Origin: a virus
IMG/VR virus record: IMGVR_UViG_3300037189_016017
Location: 1-33,895 of that record
Direction: 5' to 3' (one strand)
Length of the DNA stretch: 33,895 bases
Under the pieces are notes generated by a model. It saw only the letters and a program-made list of their open reading frames with translations. It was not told where the DNA came from and did not search any database. Of the stretch, positions 12,219-19,075 are shown piece after piece. Position numbers and translations under genes: made by a program. The stretch's first letter is position 1. Each line of letters starts with the position of its first letter.

Positions 12219-12587
12219 AGCCTTTTATATTGATTCCGGAGCCGGTAGAGTCGAATCGAAAAACGAGCAGGAATAAACCTACCAGAAATGGCAGAATGGA
12301 TTTAAGGCTATCCAAAATCCAAACAGCAATGCCACCATTTAAGAGAACCGCCACTATCTACCCAACACCAAACGCATATAATACCTATCCCATCCAATAA
12401 CAAGAATCCAATACAACCAAGCCAATTCCATAGAACACTATAAAATCCAATACCACCAAAAAAATCGTGACTAAGGTACCGATATATTAAAACCACCCCC
12501 ACCCTAAAGCTGTTTATCTTGAAAAACCATTTTTTTTTGCCGTTTTGCCAGAAAAAATAGATTCCTTTTTTGTTTTTTTTGTGCGCT

Positions 12588-12606
12588 GATTATCAATGAG
12601 TTACAA
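12588..12606 (+). repeat. Direct repeat, left copy
   Basis: GATTATCAATGAGTTACAA matches 12987-13005 at 16 of 19 positions. The pair flanks the AT-rich, skew-reversal region. Confidence 0.5.
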
Positions 12607-12642
12607 GTCTACTTAACATAATATAAATTATAGGACAAAAAC

Positions 12643-12741
12643 ATGATCCACTGGTTGAGCAGGGCAATTCCTGAAGCTGCACCGGTTGATCCTGTAAAGG
12701 GCTCGCTATATATATACTTTACTATACTCTATATTCTATGA
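12643..12741 (+). CDS. Possible small peptide, 32 residues
   Basis: An ATG with an A-rich leader (AGGACAAAAACATG) opens a 32-codon frame. Its first part is mixed (MIHWLSRAIPEAAPVD) and its end hydrophobic and aromatic (YIYFTILYIL), partly because of the TATA repeats beneath. It could be a small membrane peptide or chance. Confidence 0.2.
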   Translation: MIHWLSRAIPEAAPVDPVKGSLYIYFTILYIL

Positions 12742-12986
12742 TGAAATATGATGATGCTTAGGTGCGAAACATTCCTAAGTAAGAATTATTTTTATCTAAT
12801 AGTCTTTGTTATCTGTGGTTGTGTGGTGGGGGTATTTTGGTTGTTTTGCACGGTTTTAGGGTTTGTGAGGTATATTATTATAGTAGTTATATACTGTTTG
12901 CTGGAGCGGGGATTTTAGGCTAAAAATGGGTAACGAATAGATATTCGATATAATTTTTCCCGTTCGTGGTATAATTTTATTATATT

Positions 12987-13005
12987 GATTCTCAAGGGGT
13001 TACAA
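12987..13005 (+). repeat. Direct repeat, right copy
   Basis: GATTCTCAAGGGGTTACAA is related to 12588-12606. It lies 91 bases before the ATG of the gene at 13097. Confidence 0.5.
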
Positions 13006-13023
13006 AAAAGGTTAAAATATTTG

Positions 13024-13050
13024 TTCTATATTTTGCCGTAAAATGTAGAA
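13024..13050 (+). promoter_or_regulatory. Inverted repeat upstream of ArdC-like gene
   Basis: TTCTATATTTT pairs with AAAATGTAGAA around GCCGT, 11 pairs with one wobble. The dyad lies 46 bases before the start at 13097 and could be an operator or an mRNA hairpin. Confidence 0.4.
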
Positions 13051-13096
13051 CGTATTAAAAAGTTTCTTAATGTTGCATAAGATTTAAAACGAAAAA

Positions 13097-13439: not shown

Positions 13440-13495
13440 GCGGGTTTTCTGGTGAAATATTAGGGTTCGATTCTCTTAAACCTGCCTAACATTTA
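13440..13495 (+). promoter_or_regulatory. tRNA-like leader element 1 (T-loop class)
   Basis: GCGGGTTT (13440-13447) pairs with AAACCTGC (13478-13485). Between them lie a linker containing TGGT and the hairpin AGGG-TTCGATT-CTCT, whose loop matches the tRNA T-loop pattern. CTAACATTTA (13486-13495) follows directly, then 11 bases and ATG. Confidence 0.65.
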
Positions 13496-13506
13496 TTTAC
13501 AACAAA

Positions 13507-14673
13507 ATGAAAGTTCAAATTTTAGAATCAGGGGAAATACTTACTTTCTCAGGTGGCCCAAAGGAGGCCGCAAATCATTTTAATTTATCAAACGGGCTTT
13601 TAGGCCTTGCGTCTCTGAGCTCTCAGGGTGTTATTAAGATTTTACCTAATGATCACCAGGTCGAACCGGAACCGGTAAAAGCCCAAAGTATTAAGCCTAT
13701 TGAGCAGGACCACAAACCAACACCAAAGGAGGAAAAAAATATTATCCCTTTGGTAGAAGTTGTGGAACCAGAAACAAAGGAACCGGAAATTATTGATCCT
13801 GAGAAATTAATTTTAAAGGCATTCCAGCAAATTAAAAACAGTGGTTCTATTGATATTGAACAAGTGCGGGCAATTGTTAAAGAGGAACTATTAAAACAAG
13901 CAAACCCGGTAATTGAACACAAGTTTCAAATCCAAAGTTTGCCAGAATACAAAACAACTGAGGTACATTCCTGTATTGATACGTTGGTAAAATTAGCGAT
14001 GAATAAGCGGCACGCATGGGTATACGGGCCTCCAGGCTCTGGTAAATCGTATGCTTGTAAACAAGTGGCGGAAATATTGAATATCCCCTTTTATTCTAAA
14101 AGTTTTAGTTCTCAGGCCTCAGTATTTGAATTAAAAGGATTTCAGAATGCAAACGGTGTTTATGTGGAAACAGATTTTGTAAAATGTTTTAGAGATGGTG
14201 GCCTTTTCTTACTGGATGAAATAGACGGGGCAAACCCCAATGTATTGTTAAGTCTTAATAGTGCACTATCAAACGGGTTTATAGATACTCCGGGCGGTCA
14301 AATTGTTAAAAGTCCCGAGTTCGTTTGTTTTGCAGGTGCTAATACCATAGGGACCGGAAACAGTGCTAAATACGCAGGCAGGCAAATAATTGATCAAACC
14401 ACTATATCCCGTTTCAGGTTTGTTTATTTTGGCTATGATGAAAATTTAGAAACCGTTTTAGTAGGTTCGGCAATTGCAAAAAAAGTCCAAAAAATTAGAC
14501 AAAAGGCGAATGAAAAGGGTTTACAGTTTGAAGTTTCTCCGCGTGTTTCGCTTCAAATTAGGGATGCAATTCAAGACGGTTTTACCCTTTTTGAAGCATG
14601 GGATCAAGCACTGATTAACAAATTGAACGAAACCGATAAAAAGCAGGTTGAAATCTGGATAAGCGAACTATGA
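13507..14673 (+). CDS. MoxR-type AAA+ ATPase
   Basis: AAA+ ATPase of the MoxR/CbbQ kind, which typically remodels or activates a partner protein. The first 150 residues form a separate region: a small strand-rich domain (1-48), then an acidic/Pro linker and a helix near 100-130. Walker A, GPPGSGKS, is at 174-181; Walker B, LFLLDEIDGA, near 233-241; a sensor-1-like FAGANT near 278; and an arginine-finger-like SRFRF near 303. The 388-residue length is usual with the N-terminal extension. It overlaps the next gene by ATGA, and MoxR ATPases are commonly encoded beside their target, so the 14670 product is the likely partner. Confidence 0.85.
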   Translation: MKVQILESGEILTFSGGPKEAANHFNLSNGLLGLASLSSQGVIKILPNDHQVEPEPVKAQSIKPIEQDHKPTPKEEKNIIPLVEVVEPETKEPEIIDPEKLILKAFQQIKNSGSIDIEQVRAIVKEELLKQANPVIEHKFQIQSLPEYKTTEVHSCIDTLVKLAMNKRHAWVYGPPGSGKSYACKQVAEILNIPFYSKSFSSQASVFELKGFQNANGVYVETDFVKCFRDGGLFLLDEIDGANPNVLLSLNSALSNGFIDTPGGQIVKSPEFVCFAGANTIGTGNSAKYAGRQIIDQTTISRFRFVYFGYDENLETVLVGSAIAKKVQKIRQKANEKGLQFEVSPRVSLQIRDAIQDGFTLFEAWDQALINKLNETDKKQVEIWISEL

Positions 14674-15410
14674 AACACGTATTTAACAGTCTAAATGCTT
14701 TTGCGTCCTTCATGCAGGACGCAAATAATAACCTTGACAAGTTCAAAGGGATTAAAAGGGGTTCTGCTTGTTGGAGTGCGAGGGATGATTTTAACGGTGG
14801 TGTATCTTTTGAAACGGCTTTAGGTTATTTGCAAAACGGTTTTTATGCTCCTGTAAAAGAATTACAAACCGTTGGGAATTTTGAACAAGGTAGTACAATA
14901 GACTTTAAGGCTTCAGTTTGCGGTGTGTTTGCCAGCGTTCCCGCTTATCTAAGTGGGGATCCTTTGGCCTTTTTTGAATTTAATGAACAAGCGACCAATA
15001 AAAAATCTTTTCTTATTGACGTTTGTGTACCTGCAAATTTTGATACTGAAGAACTAAAAAACAAGGTTGAACTTGTTTTAAATATCATTAATTCGCTTGA
15101 ATGTGACAATATCAAGTGTGAAATAATAATAGGGGTAAAAACCGTCGAAATTACAAAACAGGGCAAAATAAAAGCATCTCACGAACTTGAAATAGTTGTT
15201 AAACCTTTTGAGGATCGTATAAACTTAGGGACCCATTCCTTTGCACTTGGTAACATAGCTTTTTTTAGGTCACTGTGCCTATGTTATATCTCCTTATATG
15301 CCAAAGATCCGAGGTTGGGCAATGTACGGCCTTACGAATGTCCTGAAGGAGCTATTAGCGTCTCTTTATTCAGGGACTCGACCGAAACTATTTTAAAGAA
15401 AATGCTTTAA
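14670..15410 (+). CDS. Hypothetical partner of MoxR-type ATPase (DUF7192-like)
   Basis: No catalytic family is recognised. The 246-residue protein begins with a helical region that includes WSARDDFNGGVSFETALGYL (residues 35-54), a pattern I loosely associate with the phage family DUF7192. A mid-region of alternating strands and helices (residues 110-190), with IDVCVPANFD and IKCEIIIGV, suggests a Rossmann-like or VWA-like core, though no MIDAS signature (DxSxS) is seen. Position argues for a complex with the ATPase: its start overlaps that gene by four bases. Confidence 0.6.
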   Translation: MKHVFNSLNAFASFMQDANNNLDKFKGIKRGSACWSARDDFNGGVSFETALGYLQNGFYAPVKELQTVGNFEQGSTIDFKASVCGVFASVPAYLSGDPLAFFEFNEQATNKKSFLIDVCVPANFDTEELKNKVELVLNIINSLECDNIKCEIIIGVKTVEITKQGKIKASHELEIVVKPFEDRINLGTHSFALGNIAFFRSLCLCYISLYAKDPRLGNVRPYECPEGAISVSLFRDSTETILKKML

Positions 15411-15435
15411 TCCCGGCCCTAAAATCAATTTTTTG

Positions 15436-15492
15436 CCCTGTTTACGATATTGTTTTAAACTCCTCAGAAGAGTTAACAGGGACTAACATTTA
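15436..15492 (+). promoter_or_regulatory. tRNA-like leader element 2 (CTCAGAA class)
   Basis: CCCTGTT (15436-15442) pairs with AACAGGG (15475-15481). Inside lies a 15-base linker with GATATTG and the hairpin AACTC-CTCAGAA-GAGTT. After one A comes CTAACATTTA (15483-15492), then 13 bases and ATG. Same plan as element 4 at 17176. Confidence 0.7.
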
Positions 15493-15505
15493 ACAAAACA
15501 ACAAA

Positions 15506-15997
15506 ATGAAAAAGACAGTAAAAACAATTAAGGCGGATTTAGAAGCTATTAAACACATAGCAGATGTTTCTGTAAATTATTCCACCAAAGTAAAAGCAAA
15601 AGACAGAAAGGAGCTTGAAGGCCTTTCAGAAGCCTACCAACTTATTTGGGATCGTTCAATAGGCTTGCAATTAGAACTAAAGGAGTTTTTTTATATGCTC
15701 GTTTTAGATCGTGCAAACAAAGTTTTAGGGATTATGAAATTAGGAGAAGGTAGTGCCAGTGCGTGTATTGTTGATATTCAGCAAATGGTTAGAACTGCGC
15801 TCCTTTGCAACGCTCAGGGAGTTATTATGTGGCATAATCATCCATCAGGGAATATAAACCCATCAGAAGCAGACAAAGTAATAACTGAAAGGGCAAAACA
15901 GGCTTTAAAACTAATGGATATTAATCTAATAGACCATTTTATAATAACAGCAGAAAAGTACTGGTATACTTCATTTAAGAAAGAAGGGTTATTATAA
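15506..15997 (+). CDS. RadC-like JAB/MPN-domain protein
   Basis: A short RadC-family protein with a complete JAMM metal-binding pattern: E60 in LKEFFYML, then H110 and H112 in HNHPSG, S120 and D123 in NPSEAD. This is the set expected for a zinc-bound MPN core. RadC proteins are common on phages and mobile elements; their enzyme activity is unproven, although the older DNA-repair label persists. The helix-hairpin-helix region of full-length RadC is replaced by a short charged N-terminus (residues 1-40). The start follows a tRNA-like leader element. Confidence 0.88.
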   Translation: MKKTVKTIKADLEAIKHIADVSVNYSTKVKAKDRKELEGLSEAYQLIWDRSIGLQLELKEFFYMLVLDRANKVLGIMKLGEGSASACIVDIQQMVRTALLCNAQGVIMWHNHPSGNINPSEADKVITERAKQALKLMDINLIDHFIITAEKYWYTSFKKEGLL

Positions 15998-16030
15998 TAC
16001 CGCCTCCCTTTTCAATCTTTTGCAGGTATT
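15996..16030 (+). repeat. Post-stop hairpin element of the TAATACCGCC type
   Basis: The stop codon is part of TAATACCGCCTCC, and AATACC (15996-16001) pairs with GGTATT (16025-16030). The string AATCTTTTGC inside also occurs at 21905, and a related one at 19316. Confidence 0.55.
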
Positions 16031-16038
16031 TAAAAATC

Positions 16039-16070
16039 TTTAGTATTAGTAAAAACTTTTACTAACTTTG
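16039..16070 (+). promoter_or_regulatory. Candidate Bacteroidetes-type promoter with dyad
   Basis: TTTAG (16039-16043), a 19-base spacer and TAACTTTG (16063-16070) fit the TAnnTTTG pattern. The spacer holds the inverted repeat TAGTAAAA-AC-TTTTACTA, a possible operator. Confidence 0.6.
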
Positions 16071-16093
16071 AATAACAATTTAACCTTTTCATC

Positions 16094-16288
16094 ATGAACA
16101 AGACAGAAAAAAAATTGTACGTACTTATGTTCTTCCTTCTCGCACTCATAGCGGGAGTTAAGGAGCATAGAAAAGCGGAGTTTGACCATTCCATCAAGCA
16201 CTTTAGCTTACCCAGTAACAGGTATAAAGACCTGGTTAAAAACATTGAAGCACACAGAGAATTTTCAATTAATCAACATGGAAACTGA
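16094..16288 (+). CDS. Small membrane protein, 64 residues
   Basis: No family is recognised. After MNKTEKKLY comes a hydrophobic stretch, VLMFFLLALIAGV (residues 9-21), likely one membrane span, then a hydrophilic His/Lys-rich tail that would face the cytoplasm or periplasm. The start is supported by a typical A/T-rich leader and by the promoter at 16039-16070. The stop overlaps the next small membrane gene (start 16278) by 11 bases. Two adjacent small membrane proteins could form a lysis or superinfection-exclusion pair, but nothing specific shows this. Confidence 0.65.
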   Translation: MNKTEKKLYVLMFFLLALIAGVKEHRKAEFDHSIKHFSLPSNRYKDLVKNIEAHREFSINQHGN

Positions 16289-16439
16289 ACCTTATTTCAA
16301 CCCTGAACAATTTGTGGGCTTTTGTATCTTCTTTATCTTCCTTTACGGGTTTGTGATGGCTTCAATAGGAATGTGGTTCTACAAAGCAAGTAAGAAAACA
16401 GATGGGAAAGATGTTTTTATATCCCGCCGGAAAAATTAA
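16278..16439 (+). CDS. Small membrane protein, 53 residues
   Basis: No family is recognised. I start at ATG 16278 (METEPYFNPEQF) because upstream codons in this frame lie in the preceding gene, and the leader TTAATCAAC is typical. A long hydrophobic segment (FVGFCIFFIFLYGFVMASIG, then MWFY) spans residues 12-35, followed by a basic tail (KASKKTDGK, ending SRRKN). This gives one membrane span with a positive, probably cytoplasmic C-terminus. An earlier methionine at 16182 would add 32 residues from the overlap. Confidence 0.6.
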   Translation: METEPYFNPEQFVGFCIFFIFLYGFVMASIGMWFYKASKKTDGKDVFISRRKN

Positions 16440-16444
16440 TCAAT

Positions 16445-16515
16445 TAGGGGCAAACGGTCAAAAGGGAATCTGATTCCCGCAGGAGGTTCGAGTCCTCCAC
16501 CCCTACTAACATTTA
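16445..16515 (+). promoter_or_regulatory. tRNA-like leader element 3 (T-loop class, with anticodon-like arm)
   Basis: TAGGGG (16445-16450) pairs with CCCCTA (16500-16505). Between them lie a short D-loop-like ACGGTCAAAA, the hairpin GGGAA-TCTGA-TTCCC, and GGAGG-TTCGAGT-CCTCC, a perfect T-arm. As a 7-base loop, ATCTGAT would show the anticodon CUG. There is no paired D-arm. CTAACATTTA (16506-16515) follows at once, then 11 bases and ATG. Confidence 0.7.
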
Positions 16516-16526
16516 ATAACAACATC

Positions 16527-17162
16527 ATGAGAAAGGCAGAGTTAAGGCAGTGTATTACTGAACGTAGTACTTACTGGTCCAAAGGTCGGTTAATAAGATT
16601 TATTACCATTTACATGGCATCTGGTTACAGGTGGGAGGATACCGCTGACCCTGAACGAGAGGGTATTAGTTACCATTTTACAGAAGAAGAAGCAATTGCA
16701 GCAGCGGACAAAATTAATTTGTCATTAGGGTTTAAAGCTCAGGTAGATTCAATAGAGATTGACTATGAAGAAGCAAATCAGCACTTTGCCTTCCGGCAGG
16801 AGTTTACCTGGTCAGACGTGGACCATAAAAGATTTTACCCGAATAGTACAACCATTTATTGCGGAAGGTTTAATGCCGGTTTAGAGTTAAGCCCTGATGC
16901 CATTGTAGTAGGTTATAATCATCATATGTATATGAATTATTCATATGATATCAATTTTGTAGGGCCGGTGAGGGATACCCACCTAAAAAAGGAATCTGAC
17001 TTGGTAAATTCTAAAGACTCTACAACGGCTACTTATTTTACCGTTTATGAAACCATAGAAGAACTGGAAGAGTCTTTTAAAAAAGGGGCTTCTGTACCAT
17101 TCAATAAGATTAATAGAGGGTCAAGGTTAATCAGGGAGTTTATTGAGGAGTCCCGCACCTAA
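16527..17162 (+). CDS. Hypothetical protein, 211 residues
   Basis: No family is recognised. The protein is soluble and acidic with many aromatic residues. The N-terminal part (residues 20-75) has a strand-helix pattern ending in EEEAIAAADKINLSLGF, and the middle is rich in Tyr, Asn and His (YNHHMYMNYSYDINF, near 130-145). No metal or nucleotide motif is convincing. The gene is preceded by tRNA-like leader element 3 and followed by element 4, so it forms one unit of a regularly punctuated cluster. Confidence 0.65.
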   Translation: MRKAELRQCITERSTYWSKGRLIRFITIYMASGYRWEDTADPEREGISYHFTEEEAIAAADKINLSLGFKAQVDSIEIDYEEANQHFAFRQEFTWSDVDHKRFYPNSTTIYCGRFNAGLELSPDAIVVGYNHHMYMNYSYDINFVGPVRDTHLKKESDLVNSKDSTTATYFTVYETIEELEESFKKGASVPFNKINRGSRLIREFIEESRT

Positions 17163-17175
17163 AATTAATCAAACG

Positions 17176-17232
17176 CCCTGTTTGTGATATTGCTTCATCC
17201 GGCTCAGAACCGGAAACAGGGACTAACATTTA
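17176..17232 (+). promoter_or_regulatory. tRNA-like leader element 4 (CTCAGAA class)
   Basis: CCCTGTT (17176-17182) pairs with AACAGGG (17215-17221) around a 15-base linker with GATATTG and the hairpin TCCGG-CTCAGAA-CCGGA. Compared with element 2, the hairpin stem differs at paired positions while the loop and outer stem are unchanged. CTAACATTTA (17223-17232) follows, then 13 bases and ATG. Confidence 0.72.
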
Positions 17233-17245
17233 ACAACAAATCAAA

Positions 17246-17755
17246 ATGGGTTTAGACAGCTATTTAGTTAAAAAAACGTATGTTAAAAATTGGAAACATA
17301 CGCCTGCCAAAGAAAGGCACACTGTAACCGTTTTATTGAATGGGGAATTATCCCCCGAAATAAAACCAGAAAGAATGTTTTCAATTGTTGAGGAAATTTG
17401 GTCTTGGAGGAAAGCAAATCAAATACACAAATGGTTTGTAGACAACTGCCAAGACGGAGAGGACAACTGTAAAGAGTACTATGTAAGCAGAGAACAACTT
17501 CAAGAACTTGTAGACATTTGCGAAAAGGTTCGGGATAGTTTGCTTGCTGAAGGTAATTCCGAAGGGGAAATGGGCAAAAGAAGGTTTTTAAACACCGATG
17601 TCGCTAAAGAATTACTCCCAACCTCATTAGGGTTTTATTTTGGAAGCGAGGCTTACGATGAAAACTATCTCATAGACCTGAAAGAAACAATTGCTTATGT
17701 AAAACCTGAGCTTTCCTCCAAAACCGGAGATTTTTATTATCAGGCTTCTTGGTAA
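17246..17755 (+). CDS. Conserved phage protein with WRKANxIHKWF motif
   Basis: This resembles a common phage family of unknown function, sometimes mislabelled phosphoglycerate kinase. The hallmarks are an N-terminal MGLDSYLVKKTYVKNW, the core WRKANQIHKWFVDNCQDGED (residues 52-71) with CKEYYVSREQL after it, and a C-terminal GFYFGSEAYDENYL. The protein has 169 residues and no membrane segment. Family recognition is from memory of the motif, not from a search. It is preceded by leader element 4 and followed by element 5. Confidence 0.75.
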   Translation: MGLDSYLVKKTYVKNWKHTPAKERHTVTVLLNGELSPEIKPERMFSIVEEIWSWRKANQIHKWFVDNCQDGEDNCKEYYVSREQLQELVDICEKVRDSLLAEGNSEGEMGKRRFLNTDVAKELLPTSLGFYFGSEAYDENYLIDLKETIAYVKPELSSKTGDFYYQASW

Positions 17756-17761
17756 GCCTAA

Positions 17762-17814
17762 GCGGGAAAATGGTTTTAAGAGGGTTCGATTCCCTCTTTC
17801 CTGCCTAACATTTA
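17762..17814 (+). promoter_or_regulatory. tRNA-like leader element 5 (T-loop class)
   Basis: GCGGGAAA (17762-17769) pairs with TTTCCTGC (17797-17804). Between them lie a short linker with TGGT and the hairpin GAGGG-TTCGATT-CCCTC. Compared with element 1, AAA/TTT replaces TTT/AAA at paired positions of the outer stem. CTAACATTTA (17805-17814), 11 bases and ATG follow. Confidence 0.72.
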
Positions 17815-17825
17815 ATTAAAACAAC

Positions 17826-18059
17826 ATGACAGAGTACCTTTTAAAAACAGAAGCAGGCCCGATTGCCTTCTTTAAAGTCCCCCCACAACTACCAATGGAG
17901 GACTTGACTAATATGGTTCGCTCAAAGATTGAGCTTGAATCTAATACTCCCGTTATCCTTAATATGGGCTTGCCTCATGTTAAGAATAATGTAATCATGT
18001 TTAACTACATGACCGATTCCCTTACTACTCACCAGGCAACTCTTACTCCTTCCAAATGA
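17826..18059 (+). CDS. Hypothetical protein, 77 residues
   Basis: No family is recognised. The small soluble protein has an N-terminal strand region (TEYLLKTEAGPIAFFKV), a short helix and a C-terminal strand pair containing NNVIMFNYM. It follows tRNA-like leader element 5 and overlaps the clamp gene by four bases (ATGA at 18056), so it is probably translated together with it. A role in replication is suggested by the neighbour only. Confidence 0.6.
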   Translation: MTEYLLKTEAGPIAFFKVPPQLPMEDLTNMVRSKIELESNTPVILNMGLPHVKNNVIMFNYMTDSLTTHQATLTPSK

Positions 18060-19075
18060 ATTTAAAAGAATTGCAGGCTATATTAGCCAAGTGTAAGATA
18101 AAGCCTTCCAGAAGCATTCCTATCGCCTCCGGCATAACATACCATAATGGAATCTGGCAGGTAACTGATTTTAACAGTTACCTACAAATCCGGTACAACA
18201 TTGGAGATGGAACATTTTTTATTCCTTTGCCTTTGGCAAAAAAAGCCAAAAAGATTGAAATTGTTGGCGGGATTATGCTTATAAACGGGTTTGAACACCC
18301 AGAGGCATATCCCATTGAATCAGAGGATCTTCCAAGTACAGATGCATGGCTCCAATTGAAAAACTACATAGGCGTTTATCATATTGACATTCCTAACATA
18401 ACTGATACTGTTTGTAGTACTAACCCTTTGCTACCTGCTATAAATGGAATCTGTTTTGACTTCCCAGAATCTAAGGCTATTGCTACGGATGCTCATATTC
18501 TAAGAACATGGGAGTTAATCAACATAAAGCTAATAAAAGGGGATGCGGTAACAAGTCAAGTCATTTATCCTACTACTATTGCACAACTAAAGGGCATGAC
18601 AGGGCTTAATGTTCAGGTAAACAAAGGGGCTTCCTTATTCTTAACCAAAGATTTTGACCTTATTGTTAAGCATATAGATGAAAAATTCCTTGCCTATCAA
18701 AATGTATTCCCAAGTCCTAACGACGTTAATTATATCGTATCGGCTCATAAGGACCTAATGTTAGCCTTGTGTGATTCTATCCCAGAAAGCGGGAAGCATA
18801 AGCACTTTGCTATGGAAATTAAGGATGAAAAAGTTACTGTTTTTGGCAAAGATGCTGAAGGTGTTATTTCTGACAAAGGAGTTCCCTTTCTCCATTGCCA
18901 AGTAATTCAACCAAGTCCGGAGGCTTCTATTAGAGTAGGCTTAGATGCCAAAAAACTAAAAACTATTGTTACCAGCATTACAGAAAGCAAATTTATCCGT
19001 ATGGGCATTAGCACTAACAATAGAGCGTTTTTTATAAACGATTCAAACCTCATTTTCCCTATGATCTTTTCGTAA
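18056..19075 (+). CDS. DNA polymerase III beta-clamp-like protein
   Basis: Probable sliding clamp that tethers a DNA polymerase to DNA. At 339 residues it is slightly shorter than bacterial DnaN (about 370). Clamp-like features are present: GICFDFPESKAIATDAHIL (residues 137-155) corresponds to the conserved strand with TDGHRL, YQNVFPSPND (about 214-223) to the usual YP.v.P, and the C-terminal IFPMIFS to the final MPM-type strand. The similarity is clear in pattern but divergent. No polymerase was found in this window, so it may serve the host polymerase or one encoded elsewhere. It overlaps the preceding small gene by ATGA. Confidence 0.72.
   Translation: MNLKELQAILAKCKIKPSRSIPIASGITYHNGIWQVTDFNSYLQIRYNIGDGTFFIPLPLAKKAKKIEIVGGIMLINGFEHPEAYPIESEDLPSTDAWLQLKNYIGVYHIDIPNITDTVCSTNPLLPAINGICFDFPESKAIATDAHILRTWELINIKLIKGDAVTSQVIYPTTIAQLKGMTGLNVQVNKGASLFLTKDFDLIVKHIDEKFLAYQNVFPSPNDVNYIVSAHKDLMLALCDSIPESGKHKHFAMEIKDEKVTVFGKDAEGVISDKGVPFLHCQVIQPSPEASIRVGLDAKKLKTIVTSITESKFIRMGISTNNRAFFINDSNLIFPMIFS

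Follow-up and report, generated by a model that had tools for sequence, protein, structure and literature searches.

The window analyzed here, a stretch of 33,895 nucleotides (nt) that comprises positions 1 to 33,895 of IMG/VR virus record IMGVR_UViG_3300037189_016017, is part of a phage genome, and five short elements (E1 to E5) punctuate one of its gene clusters. Three of the five are built like a transfer RNA (tRNA) that has lost most or all of its decoding parts, and a scan of IMG/VR returned many such anticodon-less mini-tRNAs, 40-60 bases in size and lying outside tRNA genes, in many unrelated phages and prophages (all IMG/VR and GTDB counts in this work are among the matches listed). 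Our best explanation, to which we give about an even chance, is that RNase P and/or RNase Z process polycistronic phage messenger RNA (mRNA) at these elements, which would thereby punctuate it in the way that t-elements do in plant mitochondria.

Structure of the Five Elements

A first-pass annotation made from the sequence of the window had described five tRNA-like elements with a common fold, and all five are found where it placed them, each on the + strand (Table 1). E1 and E5 share a layout in which an acceptor stem is followed by a GGT linker and a T-arm; E3 carries in addition a hairpin, GGGAATCTGATTCCC, that resembles an anticodon arm and stands in the place of one. A T-loop together with GG is confined to E1, E3 and E5, for which the description as tRNA-like stands, but E2 and E4 have an anticodon-like loop and no T-loop. 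The compensatory changes that had been reported between copies hold, as 3 of the 8 outer-stem pairs differ on both sides between E1 and E5 and 4 of the 5 inner-stem pairs between E2 and E4, for a total of seven such stem positions among the window copies. E3, E4 and E5, folded alone, adopt the proposed structure as their lowest-energy state (z -1.9 to -2.5), but E1 and E2 prefer other structures (z -0.7 and -1.5, respectively), and the inner stem of E1 consists of 4 base pairs (bp) plus a T-T mismatch. A 59 kb contig carries the same five elements with identical spacing.

Within the 33.9 kb window there are exactly five copies of the motif CTAACATTTA, each of them 0-1 base 3' of an element. 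The spacers that separate it from ATG are 11, 13, 11, 13 and 11 bases for E1 through E5, confirming the earlier assignment of 11 bases to the T-loop class and 13 to the class with a CTCAGAA loop.

Occurrence and Covariation in Other Phages

The IMG/VR search was keyed only on a GG linker close to a T-loop. Since the acceptor stem plays no part in this pattern, its pairing is a fair test of the class; such pairing is present in 30 of the 61 listed non-tRNA matches, as compared with 5.3 expected when partners are shuffled (maximum 13 in 500 shuffles), and T-stem pairing in 43 of the 61 (8.3 expected). Acceptor pairing is likewise found in 28 of 78 listed matches in GTDB genomes, where 6.4 are expected. 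Conversely, a search by topology alone returned mostly TTCGANT loops in G002, G003 and G014. Neither 2.9 Mb of shuffled DNA nor 0.97 Mb of phage DNA taken without regard to the elements contained any match to a strict T-loop descriptor. The topology of the elements exceeds chance.

When 11 elements from other phages are aligned, 11 of 12 pairs are seen to have changed on both sides, with a covariation score that was reached by none of 500 shuffles. A covariance model (R1) built from these 11 elements, with the window sequence excluded, finds E5 with 46.4 bits (E=5.6e-11) and E1 with E=0.008, matches only the T-arm part of E3 (E=0.07), and over its full length matches nothing in 0.63 Mb of phage DNA that had not been selected. 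Two prophages keep an element before orthologous genes (71% amino acid identity) with T-stem pairs that differ in a compensated manner, and five such elements covary. A match at E<=1e-4 is found in only 5 of 81 genomes of the family in question, and the element is therefore rare in chromosomes. The first-pass annotation would have been refuted had related genomes held no copies with paired changes, but the class extends to many further phages and covaries extensively there. The proposal that the elements are minimal tRNA mimics placed between genes thus has strong support.

The carriers include Mu-like Bacteroidota prophages, one in the isolate Dysgonomonas sp. PF1-14 (L493), where a single copy is present at G026 C8:94350-94392, and one in a Sphingobacteriaceae metagenome-assembled genome (L569), as well as a phage resembling Firmicutes siphophages (L342). 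In four relatives of the latter that were scanned there is one weak tRNA-like match, which is not of the short GG/TTCGA form, and a search of INPHARED by DNA similarity to the carrier phages gave no element-bearing cultured phage. In another phage (L349, 5809-6690), too, a mini-tRNA stands before a gene for an AAA_5 ATPase, which matches the arrangement in the window. A further mini-tRNA stands before a replication-initiator-like gene of Enterococcus cecorum DSM 20682 (L579, 5858-5898), and the class may therefore extend to other mobile elements.

The elements are not functional tRNA genes with a cloverleaf and an anticodon arm. ARAGORN in bacterial mode detects no tRNA in the window and no transfer-messenger RNA (tmRNA) at the elements; with Rfam 15 no family scores above its gathering threshold in the window, RF00005 (tRNA) has no match at the elements, and at the elements of nine other loci there is likewise no match, the only hits being two ordinary tRNAs. 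No description of mini-tRNA punctuation in phages was found in the open-access literature, a scope that leaves out preprints and most subscription papers. What is new is thus the RNA class; the processing logic, if confirmed, is already known.

Placement between Genes

A 32 kb phage contig (G002) has 13 places that fit the pattern, all on the forward strand, and most of these elements lie between the stop of one open reading frame (ORF) and the start of the next. Across the phages listed, 27 of 43 elements do not overlap any predicted ORF, and the gene that follows has the strand of the element in 27 of 27 cases; the other 16 overlap ORFs called by a simple gene finder, and these ORFs probably include spurious ones. 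In several phages a common leader, often with a small hairpin, starts at the 3' edge of the element. Each mini-tRNA of L443 / G002:C1:1-16000 is followed by a common small hairpin (GGCTGGYATC..GCC) before ATG, and in several cases there the stop codon of the preceding gene runs 1-3 bases into the element. In L351 (2537-2631 and 2889-2970) the order mini-tRNA, ACTAACCGA, GC-rich hairpin, ATG is found twice. The tetranucleotide CTAA directly follows the element in 11 of 75 listed cases, from several unrelated contigs, against 0.7 expected; as CTAA(C) it recurs in this position in unrelated phages. The distance from element to ATG in other phages ranges from ~13 to 80 nt, and some have a Shine-Dalgarno-like sequence of their own 3' of the element.

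It is hardly credible, given these data, that the elements are simply decaying phage tRNA genes or chance hairpins. E3 does retain its anticodon-arm-like hairpin, and real tRNA clusters are present in some of the carrier phages, yet this explanation is contradicted by the covariation, the repeated intergenic placement in sense orientation, the 13 places in a single contig and the zero matches in shuffled sequence. 

A stepwise reduction of tRNA genes is suggested by E3 and by longer copies in other phages. Two such tRNA-like elements (L457, 1711-1780, and L040, 1542-1601) have space for an additional hairpin and are followed by CTAACACTTAA; they are perhaps intermediates between a tRNA and the mini form.

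A module that acts at the level of DNA is very improbable, whether as a site of recombination or cassette exchange or as a mobile promoter/stem-loop cassette such as the PeSLs of T4-like phages. Copies do multiply within a genome, the same unit stands before unrelated genes, and the 3' halves of tRNAs are often integrase sites. The T-stems, however, differ with compensation, unlike a conserved crossover core, their strand agrees strictly with that of the next gene, and CTAACATTTA, as read from its sequence, does not fit the TAnnTTTG box that Bacteroidota promoters have at -7, together with TTG at -33.

Proposed Recognition by RNase P and RNase Z

If layers are counted from the T-loop, the last one of the helix is number 12 or 13 in 58 of 73 listed elements, after which pairing is at background; the 7-bp seed of the search fixes a minimum length and no maximum, and the count is for the T-loop class, not for E2 and E4. 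A measure of 12 bp from the T-loop to the RNase P site has been described, along with cleavage of the acceptor plus T-arm hairpin AT1 (PMC11143913), the tRNA elbow is recognized and bound by processing enzymes (PMC4919913), and non-tRNA substrates of RNase P are known that include t-elements and lac operon mRNA (PMC4919922). The T-loop class has both the ~12 bp to the predicted cleavage site and the T-loop/elbow of an RNase P substrate. Processing by RNase P and/or RNase Z is our best explanation because what the elements retain of a tRNA is what the two enzymes read and what they have lost is the decoding portion, although GG and the T-loop were themselves selection criteria.

In the mechanism that we propose, a minimal tRNA-like RNA, in which the acceptor stem would be stacked on the T-arm and a GG loop would replace the D and anticodon arms, lies between two operon genes and, once folded in the polycistronic transcript, would be mistaken for a pre-tRNA by host RNase P and/or RNase Z. 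RNase P would cut at the 5' edge and RNase Z at the 3' edge to yield separate mRNAs, with the 3' cut leaving a short leader before ATG (in the window, CTAACATTTA plus 11-13 nt). The benefit may be that mRNA ends, stability and expression are set gene by gene.

Several observations weigh against this picture. The first pair is G-C in only 17 of 75 listed elements, the base after the acceptor (73) is C in 29, T in 19, A in 15 and G in 12, so that C or T is present in 48 of the 75, and there is no general CCA at the 3' ends of the listed elements; G1-C72 and 3' RCCA, which are favorable and not obligatory for RNase P, are thus not features of the class. In G002, G004, G017 and G022 the stop codon of the preceding gene extends across the 5' edge of the element and would therefore be damaged by an RNase P cut there. 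E2 and E4 have neither T-loop nor GG, and homologs of the gene at 17246 occur in other phages with no element upstream, so that the element is neither needed by, nor tied to, that gene. A simple cut on both sides is made less likely by the overlapping stops and by terminal bases that are unlike those of tRNAs. The cleavage predicted in the first-pass annotation fits the anatomy (12-13-layer helix, GG plus T-loop elbow, leader at the 3' edge), and its interpretation is supported in part.

Overlapping stop codons would stay intact were the cut made only at the 3' edge by an RNase Z-like activity, in which case the upstream mRNA would be protected from exonucleases by a tRNA-like 3' cap, and the leader would be the start of the downstream mRNA. 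In each phage the 3' edge is indeed where conservation of the leader sets in, and the excess of CTAA at this edge is consistent with such a cut. Since the base after the acceptor is mostly C or T, however, and since the conserved leader could be a ribosome-binding feature instead, we consider a 3'-only cut rather improbable.

The main rival, which is unlikely without being negligible, is that the leader remains uncut and, in folded form, controls how the following gene is translated or how stable its mRNA is, be it as a stable structure after the stop, as a tRNA mimic bound by the ribosome or by a protein, or as an operator like the thrS leader. The overlapping stops pose no problem here, tRNA-substrate end features need not be retained, and the position between stop and start, the constant distance of 11/13 nt that separates motif and ATG in the window and the anticodon-like loop of E2 and E4 are all in its favor. 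Elsewhere, however, the distance to ATG is variable, some copies being followed by their own Shine-Dalgarno-like sequence, and one shape stands before unrelated genes, so that there is no obvious gene-specific ligand.

We give very little credence to a tRNA decoy that would sequester a host or defence factor binding the tRNA elbow. Retention of the elbow and loss of the ends are what such a decoy calls for, though the elbow was part of the selection, but the elements are single and placed between operon genes, not separate multicopy RNA genes.

Elements with an Anticodon-Like Loop

The CTCAGAA loop of E2 and E4 fits the anticodon-loop consensus (C32 U33, anticodon CAG, A37 A38), and ARAGORN in mitochondrial mode at default thresholds calls exactly these two elements in the region, as tRNA-Leu(CAG), with an acceptor pairing different from that proposed here. 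When all loci were searched by topology for a CTCAGAA loop, four weak matches came from beyond the window. One of them is an ordinary tRNA anticodon arm, and an anticodon-loop form of E2 and E4 is therefore suggested, if weakly, as these are two related copies from one phage. The pattern CTCAGAA...ACTAACAT was also tried in IMG/VR and returned chance matches and the 59 kb twin contig.

Genes and Leaders in the Window

The features of the cluster are listed in Table 1. The gene at 16094 has no tRNA-like element and is preceded, in 16030-16093, by a good Bacteroidota-type promoter (TTTACTAACTTTG, which fits TAnnTTTG); ordinary promoters are therefore interspersed in the cluster. Upstream of the cluster, positions 12560-13096 comprise ~500 A/T-rich bases that are apparently non-coding and likely a regulatory region.

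Table 1. Elements, leaders and downstream genes in the window
Feature	Position	Strand	Description
E1, T-loop class	13440..13485	+	8-pair outer stem GCGGGTTT/AAACCTGC, GGT-bearing linker, inner-stem loop TTCGATT
E1 leader	13486..13506	+	CTAACATTTA + 11 nt, then ATG
Gene 3' of E1	13507..14673	+	AAA+ ATPase, CobS-like, phrog_249
E2, anticodon-loop class	15436..15482	+	outer stem CCCTGTT/AACAGGG, 15-nt linker, inner stem AACTC/GAGTT, loop CTCAGAA, then A
E2 leader	15483..15505	+	CTAACATTTA + 13 nt, then ATG
Gene 3' of E2	15506..15997	+	RadC-like protein
E3	16445..16505	+	outer stem TAGGGG/CCCCTA, GG linker, additional hairpin GGGAATCTGATTCCC, T-arm GGAGG TTCGAGT CCTCC; least reduced of the five copies
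E3 leader	16506..16526	+	CTAACATTTA + 11 nt, then ATG
Gene 3' of E3	16527..17162	+	211 amino acids, no assigned function
E4, anticodon-loop class	17176..17222	+	outer stem as in E2, inner stem TCCGG/CCGGA, loop CTCAGAA, then A
E4 leader	17223..17245	+	CTAACATTTA + 13 nt, then ATG
Gene 3' of E4	17246..17755	+	169 amino acids, no assigned function; relatives in many phages
E5, T-loop class	17762..17804	+	outer stem GCGGGAA(A)/(T)TTCCTGC, linker ATGGTTTTAA, T-arm GAGGG TTCGATT CCCTC
E5 leader	17805..17825	+	CTAACATTTA + 11 nt, then ATG
Gene 3' of E5	17826..18059	+	77 amino acids, no assigned function; sliding-clamp-like gene 18056-19075 next

Relation to Known Systems and Implications

The tRNA-like domain of tmRNA, with acceptor, T-arm and D-loop and no full D-stem, is matured by RNase P; unlike tmRNA, the phage elements have no tag reading frame. 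With the PeSL cassettes they share the character of repeated intergenic stem-loop modules before unrelated genes, but a PeSL consists of an early promoter and a simple hairpin, with no tRNA-like fold. The AT1 model substrate is an artificial hairpin that has neither linker nor GG and ends in a 3' CCA, in contrast to the phage elements, which are natural, have a GG linker and usually lack CCA. The two have in common a helix of acceptor, T-stem and T-loop with 12 layers (PMC11143913). MALAT1 mascRNA and MENbeta menRNA, like the elements, are tRNA-like structures within a longer RNA; these eukaryotic structures form the 3' end of a long non-coding RNA and are cut by RNase P and RNase Z (PMC4919922). 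Closest are the plant-mitochondrial t-elements, non-decoding tRNA-like structures at mRNA ends in polycistronic transcripts, which differ in being organellar and cut by a protein-only RNase P (PMC4919922), whereas the phage elements are present in many short, repeated copies and their cleavage is predicted. By fold and intergenic position the latter would qualify as t-elements, defined by an acceptor plus T-arm fold at an mRNA boundary, here a predicted one.

More tentatively, and at somewhat less than an even chance, we propose that anticodon-less mini-tRNAs are widespread in phages as mRNA punctuation that operates through host tRNA-processing enzymes, a bacterial counterpart of what is found in mitochondria, that they arose by stepwise stripping of phage tRNA genes and that E2 and E4 are a second, anticodon-arm-based form. 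If this is correct, phages would set the ends of their mRNAs with the host's essential tRNA-maturation enzymes, and the logic of tRNA punctuation known from organelles would operate in bacteria as well. There would then be a reason for the odd tRNA-like remnants in phage genomes, the minimal RNase P substrate would have its counterpart in nature, and phages would hold an additional class of RNA that is missed by current annotation with ARAGORN and Rfam.

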